Positions 830 to 52,826 of a stretch of DNA of 55,454 nucleotides are shown one piece after another. A program made the translations under genes and the position numbers. The notes beneath the pieces were generated by a model. That model worked only from the letters and a program-made list of their open reading frames with translations. It made no database searches and was not told where the DNA came from. Location of the stretch: the NCBI GenBank assembly GCA_949297215.1, contig CASFRV010000013.1:1-55454 (forward strand), in the 5' to 3' direction. Position 1 is the stretch's first letter, and each line of letters begins with the position of its first letter. The stretch is from an uncultured Bacteroidales bacterium. GTDB taxonomy: Bacteria; Bacteroidota; Bacteroidia; Bacteroidales; Bacteroidaceae.

Positions 830-1048
830 CGGCCTCGAAGAGGCCGGGCTATGAGTAGCCTCGGGTGGAGCGCAGCGTAACCCGAGGTGGGGCGGCGGGT
901 GGTGAAGTCGGCCTCGAAGAGGTCGCTATGCCCGTGGTGGCAGGTGGCATAGACGCCTCTTCGAGGCTCTCTTCGTTATGCGTGTGCGTACCGCGGGTTC
1001 CGCTTCGCTCCACCCGCGGCTACTGATAGGTCGGCCTCTTCGAGGCCG
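830..1048 (-). repeat. Module C copy 1 (219-bp nested palindrome)
   Basis: Bounded on both sides by CGGCCTC(GAA/TTC)GAGGCCG palindromes in inverted orientation. Inside are a CCTCGGGT...ACCCGAGG hairpin (partly decayed, GGAGCGCAGCGTA loop), inner GCCTCGAAGAGG palindromes facing each other, and a CCGCGGGT...ACCCGCGG hairpin. It runs in the opposite direction to the three other copies. Confidence 0.85.
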
Positions 1049-6510: not shown

Positions 6511-7167
6511 TCAGAGCTTGGAGCCGAAGGAGAGGTCGCCCGCGTCGCCGAGGCCGGGCACGATGTAGGCGCGGTCGTTGAGGGCGGGATCGACGGCGGC
6601 GCACCAGAGGGTGACGTCGTCCGTCGGGAAGACGCGCTGCAAATGGGCGATGCCCTCCTCGGCGGCTATGGCCACGCAGATGTGCATACGGTCGGGGCGG
6701 CCGCCCGTCGTGACGAACGACTTATAGGCCAGCTCGATGCTGCCGCCCGTGGCCAGCATGGGGTCGACCATGAGGAAGGTGGAGCCGTCGAGGCGGGGCG
6801 AAGCGATGTATTCGAGGTGGATTTTCAAGTCGTCCTTGCTGCCTTCTTCGCGATAGGCGGCCACGAAGGCCGAGTCGGCGCCTTCGAACACGTCGAGGAA
6901 GCCCTCGTGGAAGGCCAGGCCGGCGCGCAGCACGGTGCCCACGACGATGCGGTCGTCATAGGTGGGCGTATCTTTGGTGCCGAGGGGCGTCTGTATGGTT
7001 TTGACCGAATAGCGCAGCGTGCGGCTCAGCTCGTAGGCCATGGCCCGGCCGATGCGCGTCAGGTTGTGGCGGAACAGCGCGCGGTTCTGCTGGTAGTTGA
7101 CGTCGCGCAGCTGCGCCATGAAGGTGTTGATGGCCGTGTTGTCGGCCCCCAGATTGATGACTTTCAT
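6511..7167 (-). CDS. upp: Uracil phosphoribosyltransferase Upp
   Basis: Salvage enzyme that makes UMP from uracil and PRPP in the cytoplasm. At 218 residues it is full length. The PRPP-binding loop is in FLMVDPMLATGGSI (about 145-158), and the uracil-binding C-terminal segment with Y-I-V-P-G-L-G-D-A-G-D is at about 198-208. The N-terminal region (RALFRHNLTRIGRAMAYELS) matches the UPRTase arm. It is a single-gene unit: a promoter with TTTG and TAATTTTG boxes lies upstream and a palindromic terminator downstream. Confidence 0.96.
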   Translation of the reverse strand: MKVINLGADNTAINTFMAQLRDVNYQQNRALFRHNLTRIGRAMAYELSRTLRYSVKTIQTPLGTKDTPTYDDRIVVGTVLRAGLAFHEGFLDVFEGADSAFVAAYREEGSKDDLKIHLEYIASPRLDGSTFLMVDPMLATGGSIELAYKSFVTTGGRPDRMHICVAIAAEEGIAHLQRVFPTDDVTLWCAAVDPALNDRAYIVPGLGDAGDLSFGSKL

Positions 7168-7331: not shown

Positions 7332-8390
7332 TCAGTGGCGCTGGCGGCGCACGCTGTACGTGCCGCGCGAGCGGGTCGACGAGCTGCGCTGCTGCTTGGT
7401 GGCCTTGGTCTTGGTGCGCGTTTTCTTGGCGCTCACGCCGCCCGACGAGCGGCGGGTCGACGTGCCGCGGCGTCGCGTGGCCTTGGGCGCCTCGGCTTCC
7501 TTGTCGTCGACGGCCGTGGCCACCGAGTCGGTGGCGGCGGGCGGCACAGAGTCCTTGCCCCACACGTGTTTCTCGAAGTCGGCCAGCTCCTTCTCGATGC
7601 GTTTCTGCTCTTTCACCACGGTGGTGTCGCCCTCGGTCTCGGCGATGAGCAGTTTGTCCTGCAAGTTGGTCGTTTTGTAGATGGTTCCCTTGTAGAGGTT
7701 GAGGGTGAAGTAGTCGTCGGCCGAAATCATGGCTGCGTTGTTCACGCTGCTGCCCATGAGCATGAGCTTGGCCAGGTAGGGCGCCGCTTCTTCATACTTT
7801 ACCCAGAACATGGGATACTTTGCGTCCATGCCGCCGAAGTCGTCGCCGCGCTTGAGCACGGGGCAGATGGCCGTCACCTTTGTCTGGAACGTAGCGGTGT
7901 GCTGGTTATAGTAGACGCTCTCCTTAACGAAGTAGGACCGCACCTCGTCGGAGGGCAGGTCGGCGTCGTTCACGCGGATGCGCCCGTCTTTCGACTCGTA
8001 GAGAATCTGATAGCGGTCCATGAGCGCCTTGCCCTTGATGGTGTTGTCGTCGGAGAAGTCTTCGTTGCCGTCGAGCTTGTAGTCGTAGGCCTTGATGTTG
8101 CCGCGCAGCACGAGCTTGAAGAGCGAGACGAAGAGGTTTTCGCGTCCGTTCTGCGGGGTGGAGGGATAATAGAGCGTGGCGTTCTCCTCTTTCGTCAGGT
8201 CGATCTCGCGGTAGATGTCGCGGCGCCACACGGCGTCGTCGGGCATCGGGACGGCCGTCGGGAAGTCGCGGTGGGCCGAGGCCACGGGCGTTTTGCTTTC
8301 TTTTTCCTGCTGTGCCTTGCGGCGAGCGGGTGGCTGTGCCGTAGCGGCCAGCGTGGCGAGACACAGGAGGGTGAGTATGATGCGTTTCAT
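7332..8390 (-). CDS. gldN: Type IX secretion protein GldN/PorN
   Basis: Last gene of the T9SS core operon. GldN is a periplasmic protein that binds the GldK lipoprotein and forms the ring-shaped part of the translocon at the outer membrane. A signal peptide ends at LAATA|Q19. The body carries family landmarks: AVWRRDIYREIDLTKEENA (about 53-71), YDYKLDGNEDFS, VRSYFVKESVYYNQHTATFQ and WVKYEEAAPYLAK. Unusual is the C-terminal tail of about 75 residues, which is almost all K, R, S, T, A and G (ATRRRGTSTRRSSGGVSAKK) and looks disordered and strongly basic. The gap to gldM is 58 bp. Confidence 0.93.
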   Translation of the reverse strand: MKRIILTLLCLATLAATAQPPARRKAQQEKESKTPVASAHRDFPTAVPMPDDAVWRRDIYREIDLTKEENATLYYPSTPQNGRENLFVSLFKLVLRGNIKAYDYKLDGNEDFSDDNTIKGKALMDRYQILYESKDGRIRVNDADLPSDEVRSYFVKESVYYNQHTATFQTKVTAICPVLKRGDDFGGMDAKYPMFWVKYEEAAPYLAKLMLMGSSVNNAAMISADDYFTLNLYKGTIYKTTNLQDKLLIAETEGDTTVVKEQKRIEKELADFEKHVWGKDSVPPAATDSVATAVDDKEAEAPKATRRRGTSTRRSSGGVSAKKTRTKTKATKQQRSSSTRSRGTYSVRRQRH

Positions 8391-33672: not shown

Positions 33673-33810
33673 CAAAGATAGTGCAAGGCGAGAGAAATGA
33701 GAAGGAAAAGCTTACTTTTCCTTCCATTCCCGAGCCGCAGCCTATCTTGGGCGAAGCCAAAGTTGTGCAAGGCGAGTGGAGAGGAAAGGAAAACTTCGTT
33801 TTTCTTTCCC
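33673..33810. repeat. GCAAGGCGAGAG / CTATCTTGGGC palindromic repeats
   Basis: Contains GTGCAAGGCGAGAGAA, AAGGAAAAGCTTACTTTTCC (a hairpin), CCTATCTTGGGCGAAGCCAA (33741-33760), and a second GTGCAAGGCGAGTGGA. The same units lie at 55168-55310. CAAAGATA at 33673-33680 reads TATCTTTG on the minus strand and could double as the nadB -7 box. Confidence 0.7.
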
Positions 33811-33853
33811 GCTGCCGAGCCGCACAGCGCGCAGCTCATCACCCGTCCGCCAC

Positions 33854-33966
33854 GTAGAGACGCGATTCATCGCGTCTCACCCGCTCGGGGCGCAGCCCCG
33901 CCACGACATCCCTCCCCACGGTGTGGCCATCCGGGACGTGAGAGACGCAGGGTATCGCGTATCTAC
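33854..33966 (+). repeat. Module A copy 2
   Basis: 113 bp, starting GTAGAGACGCGATTCATCGC; the right palindrome has decayed (ACGCAGGGTATCGCGTATCT in place of ACGCGATGAATCGCGTCTCT). Confidence 0.85.
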
Positions 33967-34027
33967 GCAGGCAAATTCCCATGCGGCAGAAGATCCGCCG
34001 CGACGTAAGACACACCGCGAGGCCTGC

Positions 34028-34297
34028 GCCCCCATAGGGGGCGAACCTGCGGAAAGGAAGCATCAGGATATGTGGACCCCATGGGGGTCCAACTTCCCAT
34101 TACCGCGGGTAGGCCGCAGGCACACCCGCGGAGCAGCGAGGCTGCCGCCCGTCCAATGGTCACCACGGAGAAGCCCGCGGTCCGCACGACCGCGGCATGA
34201 AGTTCGACCCCCATGGGGTCGGATTAGTGGAGGAGTTCCTGTCCGCAGGTGGCTTCGCTCACCCGCGGTTATAGAAAGTGCGACCCCTATGGGGTCG
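34028..34297 (+). repeat. Module D copy 1 (270 bp, internal deletion)
   Basis: Bounded by CGCCCCCATAGGGGGCG and CGACCCCTATGGGGTCG. It carries inner GGACCCCATGGGGGTCC and CGACCCCCATGGGGTCG palindromes. It lacks 31 bases found in the copy at 50283-50583, and the loss falls between two GGCGA direct repeats. Confidence 0.8.
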
Positions 34298-34449
34298 ACA
34301 GCCTCGCTGCCGACACACCGTCGCCCCGCCCGCGGAAAACCGCCACCGCATGAAATCATCACACGCTCCCGCCACGGCGGCAGACAGCGCATAGCACTGG
34401 CGGCCTCTTCGAGGCCGTCAGCCTCACGGCCTTCCTCCTCCCGCCGCGT

Positions 34450-34772
34450 GTGCGCTATATGGCAAACCGTTAATGCGGACAGCGACCGACGCCCGCCTTC
34501 CAGCGTTATTTCCGCGCGTCTATGCAGCTTTTCTGTGCGTCCATGCGGCCGCCCCGTCGCTCCATCCCATGGATTTCCATTTCCATCCAAGGCCACTTTT
34601 CAGCGGAAAATGGAGGGCGATTTGTGACATATAGCGGCGAAATTCGCGTTTTTGGGCGTACCTGCGGCCGAGCGTCGCATGGATGTGTCTGAAAATGAGA
34701 TGCTTCGGATTTTCGCGTATTTGCGAGCGACGGAGTAGCCGCGCGAAAATAATCGATTCTCCGTGTTAAAAA
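34450..34772 (+). repeat. Module B copy 2 (323 bp, internal deletion)
   Basis: Same ends as the other copies, and near-identical to the one at 50939-51299 except for loss of 38 bases within the CCATCCCATGGA tandem part. Confidence 0.85.
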
Positions 34773-34813
34773 CCCGCGCTGCGGACAGGTGATAGAGCAT
34801 TCCGCAGCACAAG

Positions 34814-35033
34814 CGGCCTCGAAGAGGCCGACCTATCAGTAACCGCGGGTGGAGCGCAGCGGAACCCGCGGTACGGCCCCACTCTACGAAGATAGCCTCG
34901 AAGAGGCGTCTATGCCACCTGCCGACACCGGGCATAGCGACCTCTTCGAGGCCGACATCTCCACCCGTCACCCCACCTCGGGTTCCGCTGCGCTCCACCC
35001 GAGGTTACTAATAGCCCGGCCTCTCCGAGGCCG
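34814..35033 (+). repeat. Module C copy 2 (220 bp)
   Basis: Starts CGGCCTCGAAGAGGCCG and ends with its inverse (one base changed, CTCTCCGAG). The left hairpin is CCGCGGGT...ACCCGCGG, the right CCTCGGGT...ACCCGAGG. Confidence 0.88.
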
Positions 35034-35095
35034 TCATGCCTCGCGGCTCCCCCTCCCGCCCGCCACACACCACATCGCCTTGCTTCGCGGCCGAT

Positions 35096-49780: not shown

Positions 49781-50109
49781 TCATCAGGTCCGTACAATAC
49801 ATTCTTAATTTCTCGTTTCGGCCGCAAGGCCTCCGCTGTCTTCATAGCAAAAGTAAGGGATTTCGTTGGAAAAATGAAGTTTTAAAATTACCCCCCCAGA
49901 TTTTACAATTTATTAACGCGGAATTTTCTATCTGATAAGCCCGCTTTGCAAAAAAGCATGCCCGGCACCACGCCGCCGGCCGCCGGCGACGGGGGCGCAG
50001 CGGGGGCAAGGGGGAAATCTGCCACGCAAAGACGCGGAGTATCGCGTATCTGCGCGGCGAGCATCCAGCCTCGCGGCCACCACCTCCCGCCGCATGGGAA
50101 ATCCGCCAC

Positions 50110-50222
50110 GTAGAGACGCGATTCATCGCGTCTCACCCGCTCGGGGCAAAGCCCCGCCACGACATTCTTCCCCGCCGCGGGGTCATCCGGGACGTGAGAG
50201 ACGCGATGAATCGCGTCTCTAC
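50110..50222 (+). repeat. Module A copy 3 (113 bp, intact)
   Basis: Both bounding palindromes are intact: GTAGAGACGCGATTCATCGC at the left, and its exact inverse ending CGCGTCTCTAC at the right. Inside are CTCGGGGCAAAGCCCCG-type and CCCCGCCGCGGGG short hairpins. Confidence 0.88.
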
Positions 50223-50282
50223 GCAGGCAAATTCCCATGCGGCAGAAGGTCCGCCGCGACGTAAGACACACCGCGAGGCCTG

Positions 50283-50583
50283 CGCCCCCATAGGGGGCGA
50301 ATTTTCTATAACCGCAGGTGAGCCAAAGGCGAACCTGCGGAAAGGAAGCATATAGATATGTGGACCCCATGGGGGTCCAACGTCGATTACCGCGGGTAGG
50401 CCGCAGGCACACCCGCGGAGCAGCGAGGCTGCCGAACGTCCAATGGTCACCACGGAGCAGCCCGCCGTCCGCACGACGTCGGCGTGAAGTTCGACCCCCA
50501 TGGGGTCGGAGTGGTGTGTGGGTCCTGTCCGCAGGTGGCTTCGCTCACCTGCGGTTATAGAAAGTGCGACCCCTATGGGGTCG
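50283..50583 (+). repeat. Module D copy 2 (301 bp, complete)
   Basis: CGCCCCCATAGGGGGCG starts and CGACCCCTATGGGGTCG ends it. Next inward, CTATAACCGCAGGTGAGC (left) and GCTCACCTGCGGTTATAG (right) are exact inverses, each starting a hairpin closed by AACCTGCGG or CCGCAGGTGG. Further inward are GGACCCCATGGGGGTCC and CGACCCCCATGGGGTCG. Confidence 0.85.
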
Positions 50584-50686
50584 ACAGCCTTGCTGCCGAC
50601 ACACCGTCGCCCCGCCCGCTGAAAACCGCCACCGCATGAAATCATCACACGCTCCCGCCACGGCGGCAGACACCGCATAGCACGGT

Positions 50687-50905
50687 CGGCCTCGAAGAGG
50701 CCAAGCTATTAGTAACCGCGGGTGGAGCGTAGCGGAACCCGCGGTATGCGCACACATACCCAAAAGAGCCTCGAAGAGGCGTCTATGCCACCTGCCAACA
50801 CCAGGCATAGCGACCTCTTCGAGGCCGACATCATCACCCGCCACCCACCTCGGGTTCAGCTGCGCTCCACCCGAGGTTACGCATAGCCCGGCCTCTTCGA
50901 GGCCG
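50687..50905 (+). repeat. Module C copy 3 (219 bp)
   Basis: Bounded by CGGCCTCGAAGAGGCC and CGGCCTCTTCGAGGCCG; left hairpin CCGCGGGT...ACCCGCGG with loop GGAGCGTAGCGGA, right hairpin CCTCGGGT...ACCCGAGG. This copy is inserted between modules D and B, where R3 has none. Confidence 0.88.
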
Positions 50906-50938
50906 TCATGCCTCGCTGCCTTCCCCCTCCCGCCGCCT

Positions 50939-51299
50939 GTGCGCTATATGGCAAACCGTTAATGCGGACAGCGACCGACGCCCGCCTTCCAGCGTTATTT
51001 CCGCGCGTCCATGCGGTTTTTTTGTGCGTCCATGCGGCTGCCCCGTCGCTCCATCCCATGGATTTCCATTTCCATCCCATGGATCGGCCGATCCATCCCA
51101 TGCAATTTCCCATCCAAGGCCACTTTTCAGAGGAAAATGGAGGGCGATTTGTGCCATATAGCGGCGAAATTCGCGTTTTCGGGCGTCCTCGCGGCGGGGC
51201 TTCGCAGGGATGTGTCTGAATATGAGATGCTTCGGATTTTCGCGTATTTGCGAGTGACGGAGCAGCCGCGCGAAAATAATCGATTCTCCGTGTTAAAAA
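50939..51299 (+). repeat. Module B copy 3 (361 bp, complete)
   Basis: Runs from GTGCGCTATATGGCAAACCG to CCGTGTTAAAAA. The central part has three CCATCCCATG units around ATCGGCCGAT. Short frames here (HPMDFHFHPMD-like) simply translate that repeat. Confidence 0.85.
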
Positions 51300-51340
51300 C
51301 CCGCGCTGCGGACAGGTGATAGGGCATTCCGCAGCACAAG

Positions 51341-51559
51341 CGGCCTCGAAGAGGCCGACCTATCAGTAACCGCGGGTGGAGCAAAGCGGAACCCGCGGTA
51401 CGGACCCACCCTACGAAGATAGCCTCGAAGAGGCGTCTATGCCACAGACCGCCACGGGCATAGCGACCTCTTCGAGGCCGACATCACCACCATCCGCCCC
51501 ACCTCGGGTTCCGCTGCGCTCCACCCGAGGTTACGCATAGCCCGGCCTCTTCGAGGCCG
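51341..51559 (+). repeat. Module C copy 4 (219 bp)
   Basis: The cleanest copy: outer palindromes exact, left hairpin CCGCGGGT...ACCCGCGG with loop GGAGCAAAGCGGA, right hairpin CCTCGGGT...ACCCGAGG, inner GCCTCGAAGAGGCGTCTATG facing CATAGCGACCTCTTCGAGGC. Confidence 0.9.
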
Positions 51560-51675
51560 TCAGCCTCGCGGCCTTCTCTCCGCCTGTACGGCACACGCGC
51601 CGCAGGCCTCGCGGCCATCTGTCCCCAGCCTCGCGGCCCCCTCCCCCACTCCTATGCTTGCCGGGGCGAGGGGAT

Positions 51676-51712
51676 AAACGAAAGCCGGGGCGCACCGTTG
51701 TGCGCCCCGGCT
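51676..51712 (-). terminator. Terminator of the btuB-btuG unit
   Basis: AGCCGGGGCGCAC (51683-51695) pairs with GTGCGCCCCGGCT (51700-51712), loop CGTT; the minus strand continues TTCGTTTATC. Confidence 0.8.
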
Positions 51713-51746
51713 GTTGGCTCGCGGGATGGCGGGGTTGGGCCGTCTG

Positions 51747-52826
51747 TCAGTTGAAGATGACGGCGCAGGGGTGAACGCCTGCGTCGTAGCGGCTGACGAG
51801 GCGGCCGGCGACGTCGTAGCGGTAGACGTAGCCGGGCAGGGTGTAGCCCGTGATGGTGGCTTGCGAGCAGACGTAGAGGTCGCCGTTGGCGGGGTTGACG
51901 TCGATGTCGGTGGGGGCGGGGGGCAGCGTGCCGCCGTTGGCCAGATAGGCCTCGTTGGTCACCTGTCCCGTCGTGGTGTCGTAGGTCTTATACGTCGTGA
52001 CGGCCGTGGCGGGCGTTGTCGACCAGTCGGTCACGTTGTCGAGCACGTAGAGCGTGGTGCCGCGTGCGGCAATGCTGGTGCCGGGGCCGACGTCGGTCAC
52101 CCGGTCGTCGGGCGCAATCTTCTGCACAAGGGCGGGCGTGGCGCCATAGTCGCCCATGCACACCACGAAGACGTTGCCCGCGGCGTCGGCCACGACGGAA
52201 CCGGGGTTGAGGCCCACGGCGATGTCCTTCACCTTGGTGAACGAGGCCATGTCGACCTTGGCCACGCGCTTGCCGTTGGCATATCCGCCGGCGTAGTTGT
52301 AGCCGTCGGATATGGCCACGTACAGGAAGCCGTTGGCCGCGGCGATGCGCATGGGGTTGGGGCCCATGGCGATGCGTCCCGTCACGCTGAGCGTCGTCGT
52401 GTCGATGCGCGAAAGATAGCCATCGTTGTTCGACACGTAGATGCATCCCCCGGCGGCGCAGATGCCCTCGGGGTCGGTCGTGGGGATTTGGGCCTCGATC
52501 TGCATCGTCGTGCGGTTGATGGCCCACACCAGGTCGGAGCCGTAGACAGCTATGTAGAGGCGCGAGCCATAGGCCACGCCGTCCTGGGGCGTGTCGCCCA
52601 GACTCTGGCCGTTGGCGGCGGCGAAGACCGACGGGGCGTACGTGCCCTCGGCAAAGTTGATGGCGTCGAGCGAACCGTCGATGACGCCCATGTTGCCTTG
52701 GTTCAGGACAAAGGCTCCGAGCGTGCCCTCCTCGTAACGGGTGGGGGTGAAGGTTTCGTCGTCGGAGCAGGAGGCCGCAGCCAGGCCTGCGAGCAGCACG
52801 AGGGCTGCGGTTTTCAGTGGTTTCAT
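51747..52826 (-). CDS. btuG: BtuG-like cobalamin-binding surface lipoprotein (beta-propeller)
   Basis: The start at 52826-52824 gives MKPLKTAALVLLAGLAAASC; C20 is lipidated and followed by SDDETF, an acidic surface-export-like run. The 340-residue mature part has YncE/DUF5074-type propeller blades: GGCIYVSNNDGYLSRIDTTT, GFLYVAISDGYNYAGG, AGNVFVVCMGDYGA and NGDLYVCSQATITGYTLPG. BtuG proteins of Bacteroides sit on BtuB and capture B12 at the cell surface. The match rests on fold, lipoprotein type and position directly behind btuB under a cobalamin riboswitch. Length (359) fits BtuG2-like proteins. Confidence 0.85.
   Translation of the reverse strand: MKPLKTAALVLLAGLAAASCSDDETFTPTRYEEGTLGAFVLNQGNMGVIDGSLDAINFAEGTYAPSVFAAANGQSLGDTPQDGVAYGSRLYIAVYGSDLVWAINRTTMQIEAQIPTTDPEGICAAGGCIYVSNNDGYLSRIDTTTLSVTGRIAMGPNPMRIAAANGFLYVAISDGYNYAGGYANGKRVAKVDMASFTKVKDIAVGLNPGSVVADAAGNVFVVCMGDYGATPALVQKIAPDDRVTDVGPGTSIAARGTTLYVLDNVTDWSTTPATAVTTYKTYDTTTGQVTNEAYLANGGTLPPAPTDIDVNPANGDLYVCSQATITGYTLPGYVYRYDVAGRLVSRYDAGVHPCAVIFN

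Follow-up and report, generated by a model that had tools for sequence, protein, structure and literature searches.

Module C, a nested palindrome of about 219 bp that occurs four times in the window (the whole stretch of 55,454 nucleotides analyzed here), is probably a nonautonomous mobile element of the REP/BIME (REPIN) kind that is processed in trans by a Y1 HUH transposase, TnpA, of subclass 1.2. A preliminary description of the window had listed a REP/BIME-like mobile palindrome, moved by a transposase encoded elsewhere, among several options; this option is well supported by many genomic copies with GTA[AG]-tagged hairpins, by an IS200-like gene lying among related units, and by one site at which the repeats are present here and missing from a sister species.

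Copies, anatomy, and the fold that is kept

We searched both strands of the genome to which the window belongs (G000, an Alloprevotella-like MAG of 33 contigs and 2,400,461 bases) and, after filtering by length and identity, found Module C in at least 45 places; 100 matches were listed before filtering, and the element also matches itself in reverse. The count is a lower bound because a limited number of candidates was scored and shorter fragments were dropped by the filter. Forty of the 45 places hold full-length copies, three copies start at a contig start, one is truncated (C12), and one has an internal deletion (C11:393). Module C is scattered across many contigs, and neighboring copies in the same direction occur (e.g., C2:14115/14369 and C7:10990/11389). 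One of the 45 copies overlaps a gene predicted by a quick hexamer gene finder, whose strand calls are wrong in places (e.g., the gene after C21:8570), so that we make no claim on gene orientation around the copies. Within the window, GGCCTCGAAGAGGCC had 19 matches with up to two mismatches (0.25 expected) and the hairpin-2 core had 8 (0.01 expected). The conserved block extends slightly beyond the ends given in Table 1 (upstream CCGCaGCACGgG, downstream TCA.cC). All four positions and lengths in the preliminary description (219, 220, 219, and 219 bp) were confirmed, its outer palindromes, CTATxAGTA linker, and hairpins are present as described in the four copies, and its expectation of further copies in the genome was borne out.

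The left half of Module C reads hairpin 1, a linker with CTATCA, a foot GTA[AG], hairpin 2, and a spacer; the central hairpin and a second spacer follow, and then hairpin 2, foot, and hairpin 1 in inverted orientation. A foot of GTAG or GTAA precedes hairpin 2 on both arms of all 40 full copies. The tip of hairpin 2 is GC-NNN-GC, with a GNA triloop in 35 of 40 copies on each arm; DNA hairpins with GNA loops are specially stable.

Table 1 Module C copies, the parts of copy 1, and groups of beta-type units in the window
Feature	Position	Strand	Details
Module C copy 1	51341..51559	+	219 bp; a central hairpin between two inverted units of two hairpins each
Module C copy	50687..50905	+	219 bp
Module C copy	34814..35033	+	220 bp; within the 1171-bp stretch 33903-35073 (85 bp in G015)
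Module C copy	830..1048	-	219 bp
Left hairpin 1, CGGCCTC-GAA-GAGGCCG	51341..51357	+	Paired in 95.4% of cells, 40 copies
Left foot GTAA, adjoining the 5′ side of hairpin 2	51366..51369	+	GTAG in 22/40 copies, GTAA in 18/40
Left hairpin 2	51370..51398	+	Stem CCGCGGGT/ACCCGCGG, inner GGA/GGA mismatch, tip GC-AAA-GC in copy 1
Central hairpin	51422..51478	+	From fold and alignment
Right hairpin 2, stem CCTCGGGT/ACCCGAGG	51502..51530	-	Stem pairing in the 40-copy alignment
Right foot, GTAA on the minus strand	51531..51534	-	GTAA in 25/40 copies, GTAG in 15/40
Right hairpin 1	51543..51559	-	Paired in 96.1% of cells, 40 copies
Beta-unit group (GACCCC..GGGGTC hairpin 1), inverted arrangement	34027..34297	.	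From sequence; same type as around the transposase gene
Second group of beta-type units, start approximate	50312..50583	.	Match at 50312-50342 and sequence from 50400 on

As a single strand, Module C folds stably as DNA (z = -11.86) and very stably as RNA (z = -14.25), and the whole element is also able to fold back on itself. In the 40-copy alignment, the local hairpins were paired in 96.9% of cells, and 15 cells had changed on both sides against a mean of 3.3 in shuffled alignments, with 0 of 500 shuffles reaching 15; this answers the concern of the preliminary description that the stem changes might not be significant covariation. The long fold-back, in contrast, had 7 doubly changed cells against 7.8 in shuffles, and 246 of 500 shuffles reached 7. 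The shuffle count is not a probability because the copies are related; the contrast of two structures on one alignment is informative. Stem position 3 is G-C in 38/40, T-A in 1/40, and unpaired in 1/40 full copies on the left arm and T-A in 40/40 on the right; it pairs locally in 39/40 left and 40/40 right arms, while the cross-arm pairings are mismatched in 39/40 and 38/40. Covariation supports the local hairpins, not the long fold-back, which we rejected as a maintained structure because it showed no covariation above shuffles and is mismatched across the arms at stem position 3. The compensated stem of the preliminary description stands in that pairing is kept locally while the left and right stems differ; that difference is fixed between the arms, and the covariation from copy to copy is a separate matter.

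The Y1 transposase and its surroundings

G000 contains one full-length Y1 HUH transposase gene, C21:7468-7920, encoding 151 aa. We aligned this TnpA with 20 others; the HUH histidines, Tyr114, and Gln118 are invariant, and the Y---Q--HH motif is present in 21/21. The motif of the G000 enzyme, YIKNQKEHH, is identical to that printed for TnpA-Y1 subclass 1.2, which is described as having about 150 aa, DH[VI]H, YIKNQKEHH, low copy number, and Bacteroidetes hosts in the account of that subclass in PMC6006769; by comparison of motifs and description, the G000 enzyme shares its size, its motifs, its low copy number (a single full-length gene), and its Bacteroidetes host. Measured against NCBIfam cut-offs, which we applied to the G000 protein as first member of the alignment (the other 20 being judged by E value), this protein scored 86.9 bits with the IS200 model NF033573 (cut-off 55) but 23.7 bits with the RAYT model NF047646 (cut-off 80), and it has no Y---NP motif. 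At E up to 0.01 the IS200 model matched all 21 aligned proteins, and the RAYT model weakly matched 19/21 (best E = 2.9e-8), as expected from the shared superfamily. The solved ISDra2 and ISHp608 transposases are relatives by profile match. We rejected a RAYT (TnpA-REP) identity because the G000 protein falls below the RAYT cut-off, and the TnpA-REP that the preliminary description had proposed as partner gives way, on motif and NF047646 score, to an enzyme of another class. The genome of a sister species (G015) likewise has one TnpA gene (C26:6828-7175), whose product is 77% identical to that of G000; none of the other 19 aligned TnpAs exceeds 49% identity with the G000 protein. A partial Y1_Tnp match also appears at G000:C3:8051-8230 (model positions 37-102, frame reported as 1323 aa), and no frame of that length was found in the stretch read around it.

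The G000 gene has beta units on both sides (CGACCCC-TAT-GGGGTCG, a linker, and a hairpin with CCGCGGGT; 75 matches in G000), including, on one side, a tandem array with a 79-bp period. The units nearest the gene are mostly of the beta type, not Module C, and a Module C copy lies about 430 bp downstream. In G015, the Module C arm hits three single units at 81-83% (57 bp) that flank the TnpA gene within about 1 kb (C26:5991-6047, 6575-6631, and 7624-7680) and a fourth farther off on the same contig (C26:14350-14406). In their outer hairpin these units resemble the Module C variant CGGCCCCAAGGGGGCCG, and in their tip the beta type; because they share features of both, they tie Module C and the beta type together. 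The Y1 gene is flanked on both sides by Module C-arm units in G015 and by related beta units in G000, and the flanks of other TnpAs of the genus, where inspected, carry different units. Among 58 genomes of the genus, full-length Module C occurs in two, G000 and G015 (G003 has one 39-base match), and these are the two with the 77%-identical TnpAs.

Compared with the REP/BIME/REPIN repeats and their RAYT REPtrons (PMC2817692, PMC3116915, PMC6006769, and PMC8266576), Module C is alike in being a short, many-copy palindrome in inverted pairs and in having related units on both sides of a Y1 HUH gene of low copy number. The tag at its 5′ foot agrees in part with the GT[AG]G of those systems: it is GTAG in 22/40 left and 15/40 right feet and GTAA in the rest, half or more of the feet. 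Module C differs in having two-hairpin units and a length of 219 bp with a central hairpin. Its enzyme is not RAYT/class 2, and for this reason we do not file it under the RAYT/REP system. With IS200/IS605 (ISHp608, ISDra2) it shares the TnpA family by sequence, hairpins as probable substrates, and the absence of target duplication, but near-identical gene-carrying copies are missing here: G000 has one full-length gene and G015 has one gene, and noncoding units in G000 are many.

We infer that TnpA binds, cuts, and moves Module C, and infer likewise the strand and the replication context. A Module C unit present as single-stranded DNA, for example in the lagging-strand template, would fold into its local hairpins, and the Y1 HUH transposase would recognize hairpin 2 with its GTA[AG] 5′ foot and use it as a guide site. 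The single-gene TnpA (G000:C21:7468-7920) would then use its tyrosine to cut the element and join it again without duplicating the target, and such cutting and rejoining would scatter Module C between genes. Module C would in this way work like a BIME or REPIN with its REPtron.

Repeats at related genes in the genus, order, and phylum

Locally repeated 16-mers were found on both sides of the gene (1 kb each) at 15/22 genus loci, at 19/29 order loci, and at 11/29 phylum loci, the order and phylum loci being best-scoring matches rather than a random draw, against 0/20 random control stretches in each of the three sets; 18/29 phylum loci were without repeats on both sides. At least 50 repeated bases per kb occurred at 16/22 genus loci (controls: 1/20; a separate count gave the same 16/22 with 2/20 controls), 22/29 order loci (0/20), and 14/29 phylum loci (2/20), and 6/22 genus loci had fewer than 30. 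GC-rich stems numbered 2.77 per kb in the genus set, 2.28 in the order set, and 1.76 in the phylum set (controls: 0.55, 0.28, and 0.50). Part of this excess may reflect intergenic DNA, because the control stretches, picked manually at round coordinates of the genomes that hold the loci and without matching for intergenic content, are probably mostly coding. For the genus, 42 Y1 matches were listed and 30 loci fetched; the 22 of these that have the Y---Q--HH motif make up the count, and of the eight not counted two (L067 and L078) show repeats. L107 duplicates the gene of L051 and was removed, and in 3/29 order and 2/29 phylum loci, where the motif was not found, default positions served instead. 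Under a strict spacing rule, two-hairpin pairs were found in the flanks of 12/29 order loci and, weakly, 4/22 genus loci, against 0/20 controls each; that analysis has a baseline of 15 per kb from an artificial spacer, which is absent from the both-sided 16-mer count. A TAR foot occurred at 79/315 stem ends near order tnpA genes (shuffled: 32/318) and at 48/331 near genus genes (shuffled: 54/700), in a test framed after examples had been seen.

The units read alike in several families: GCCCTGAAAGGGC-GTAATATATCAGC-hairpin at L121, AAGCCCCGAAGGGGC-GCAACAACATAGC-CAGGGGTGAAGCCCCTGG at L114, and GCCCTGAAAGGGC-GGTATAACCTAG-CGATGGGCGAAGCCCATCG at L179. Outside G000 and G015, dispersed units were seen in G004 (33 matches, 13 at the gene) and G368 (39 matches, 4 at the gene), and the unit of G525 is nearly confined to its locus, with three of its four matches at the gene. 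We propose for subclass 1.2 a repeat plan of hairpin 1, a linker often ending in TAR, and hairpin 2. On balance we favor a broader reading, held less firmly than the one for Module C itself, in which subclass 1.2 Y1 enzymes have their own REP system across Bacteroidota, distinct from RAYT/class 2, with two-hairpin repeats around and beyond their genes as substrates and with Module C as an elaborated inverted-pair form in Alloprevotella. The subclass table of PMC6006769 gives "no" for REPs under subclass 1.2, which that account presents as generally without terminal IS200 structures, whereas many genes of this kind were found here amid repeated hairpins. The literature searched, largely without subscription papers, yielded no paper linking subclass 1.2 with REPs and no report of the present system. 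Class 3 and subclass 2.6 TnpA-Y1 have "atypical secondary structures" (PMC6006769): their low-copy Y1 genes are also flanked by atypical hairpins that are found at other places in the genome, and subclass 2.6 is mostly from Bacteroidetes, but their Y motifs, YIH[QN]NP and YV[VI][AENY]EQ, differ from that of G000.

REP systems are thought to arise by the taming of IS200-like transposases. A REP-like system on another branch, near IS200 itself, would if true mean that such taming was repeated or that the trait predates the RAYT lineage. Subclass 1.2, an orphan HUH subclass so far without a known substrate, would gain a directly testable one, and its small enzymes, which would cut and join at specific hairpins, are offered for comparison with TnpA-REP. 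The system would also account for part of the repeated intergenic DNA in Bacteroidota, where three contigs here begin inside Module C; the BrickBuilt MITEs of Porphyromonas gingivalis are similar, as summarized in PMC5771137, in being intergenic Bacteroidales repeats that break assemblies.

Two further kinds of locus were seen. At L078 (G073:C15:260872-261108), in the same genus, a Y1 gene whose YIARNP motif is class 2-like sits within an array of CGACGCGAGACGCGTCG palindromes; this locus is probably a REPtron of the ordinary kind. Two adjoining subclass 1.2-type tnpA genes are present in the single-contig genomes of L118 (G230:C1) and L122 (G248:C1).

Mobility and alternative explanations

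Where the window has 1171 bp (33903-35073, comprising the beta group, a different repeat, and Module C), G015 has 85 bp between the aligned flanks. This empty-site comparison, which the preliminary description had suggested, yielded presence and absence at one orthologous site, in a sister species, with the direction not proven and loss in G015 possible. In 39 copies, direct repeats of 2-9 bp at fixed offsets did not exceed those of permuted pairs; the lack of target duplication is what Y1 enzymes are expected to show.

Alternatively, slippage during replication, template switching, and gene conversion might both spread the palindromes and keep them palindromic with no transposase involved, in which case the Y1 gene would lie among them by coincidence or be tolerated there. 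Template switching could invert the hairpin-2 interiors that we found reversed in two left and three right arms and flip the one right outer loop found flipped (n = 40), and the neighboring copies in the same direction also fit this explanation. We nevertheless consider it unlikely, given that copies are scattered over many contigs, that the GTA[AG] tag is present in every full copy, and that the same kind of gene recurs among different repeats elsewhere at the two-sided frequencies given above.

Module C might also be a transcribed structural element (a terminator, an mRNA-stabilizing element, or a regulatory RNA) or a protein-binding DNA architecture site that is kept for its role. The stability of the RNA fold and the covariation of the local hairpins agree with such a role, but an Rfam 15 search of the window gave two matches, none of them on Module C at the family gathering score, the element is associated with a transposase, and full-length copies in just two of the 58 genomes of the genus give no indication of a role conserved in the host. 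We rate this explanation as quite improbable, and the structured RNA of the preliminary description thus keeps a small share of the probability and no Rfam family. A secondary host role has been reported for some REPs and is possible for Module C. The other mobile option of the preliminary description, a MITE, in its classical form with a DDE transposase acting on terminal inverted repeats, would match the overall inverted repeat, the nearly fixed length, and the scattered copies, but it is highly improbable and was rejected on the missing target duplication in 39 copies, the arms moreover carrying REP-type tags.

The repeats may also take part in rearrangements, because gene order relative to G015 breaks at the stretch that holds the copies at 50687 and 51341 (window 49974-51747). 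On its left this stretch is flanked by sequence that maps to G015:C7:41977, and on its right by sequence that maps to C7:77940; a partial Module C at G015 C7:41209-41321 lies beside the left-flank position.

Other repeats accompany Module C. A second dispersed repeat of about 360 bp lies upstream of two copies (window 50937-51299 and 34438-34790), has 36 matches over 200 bp in G015, and has no Rfam match. Short palindromic repeats, e.g., GAGACGCGATTCATCGCGTCTC, occur beside many Module C copies and in G015 (window 33673-33824 and 50090-50242). Elsewhere in the window are a FopS small RNA (RF04319, 26841-26906, plus strand) and a cobalamin riboswitch (RF00174, 54960-55176, minus strand).
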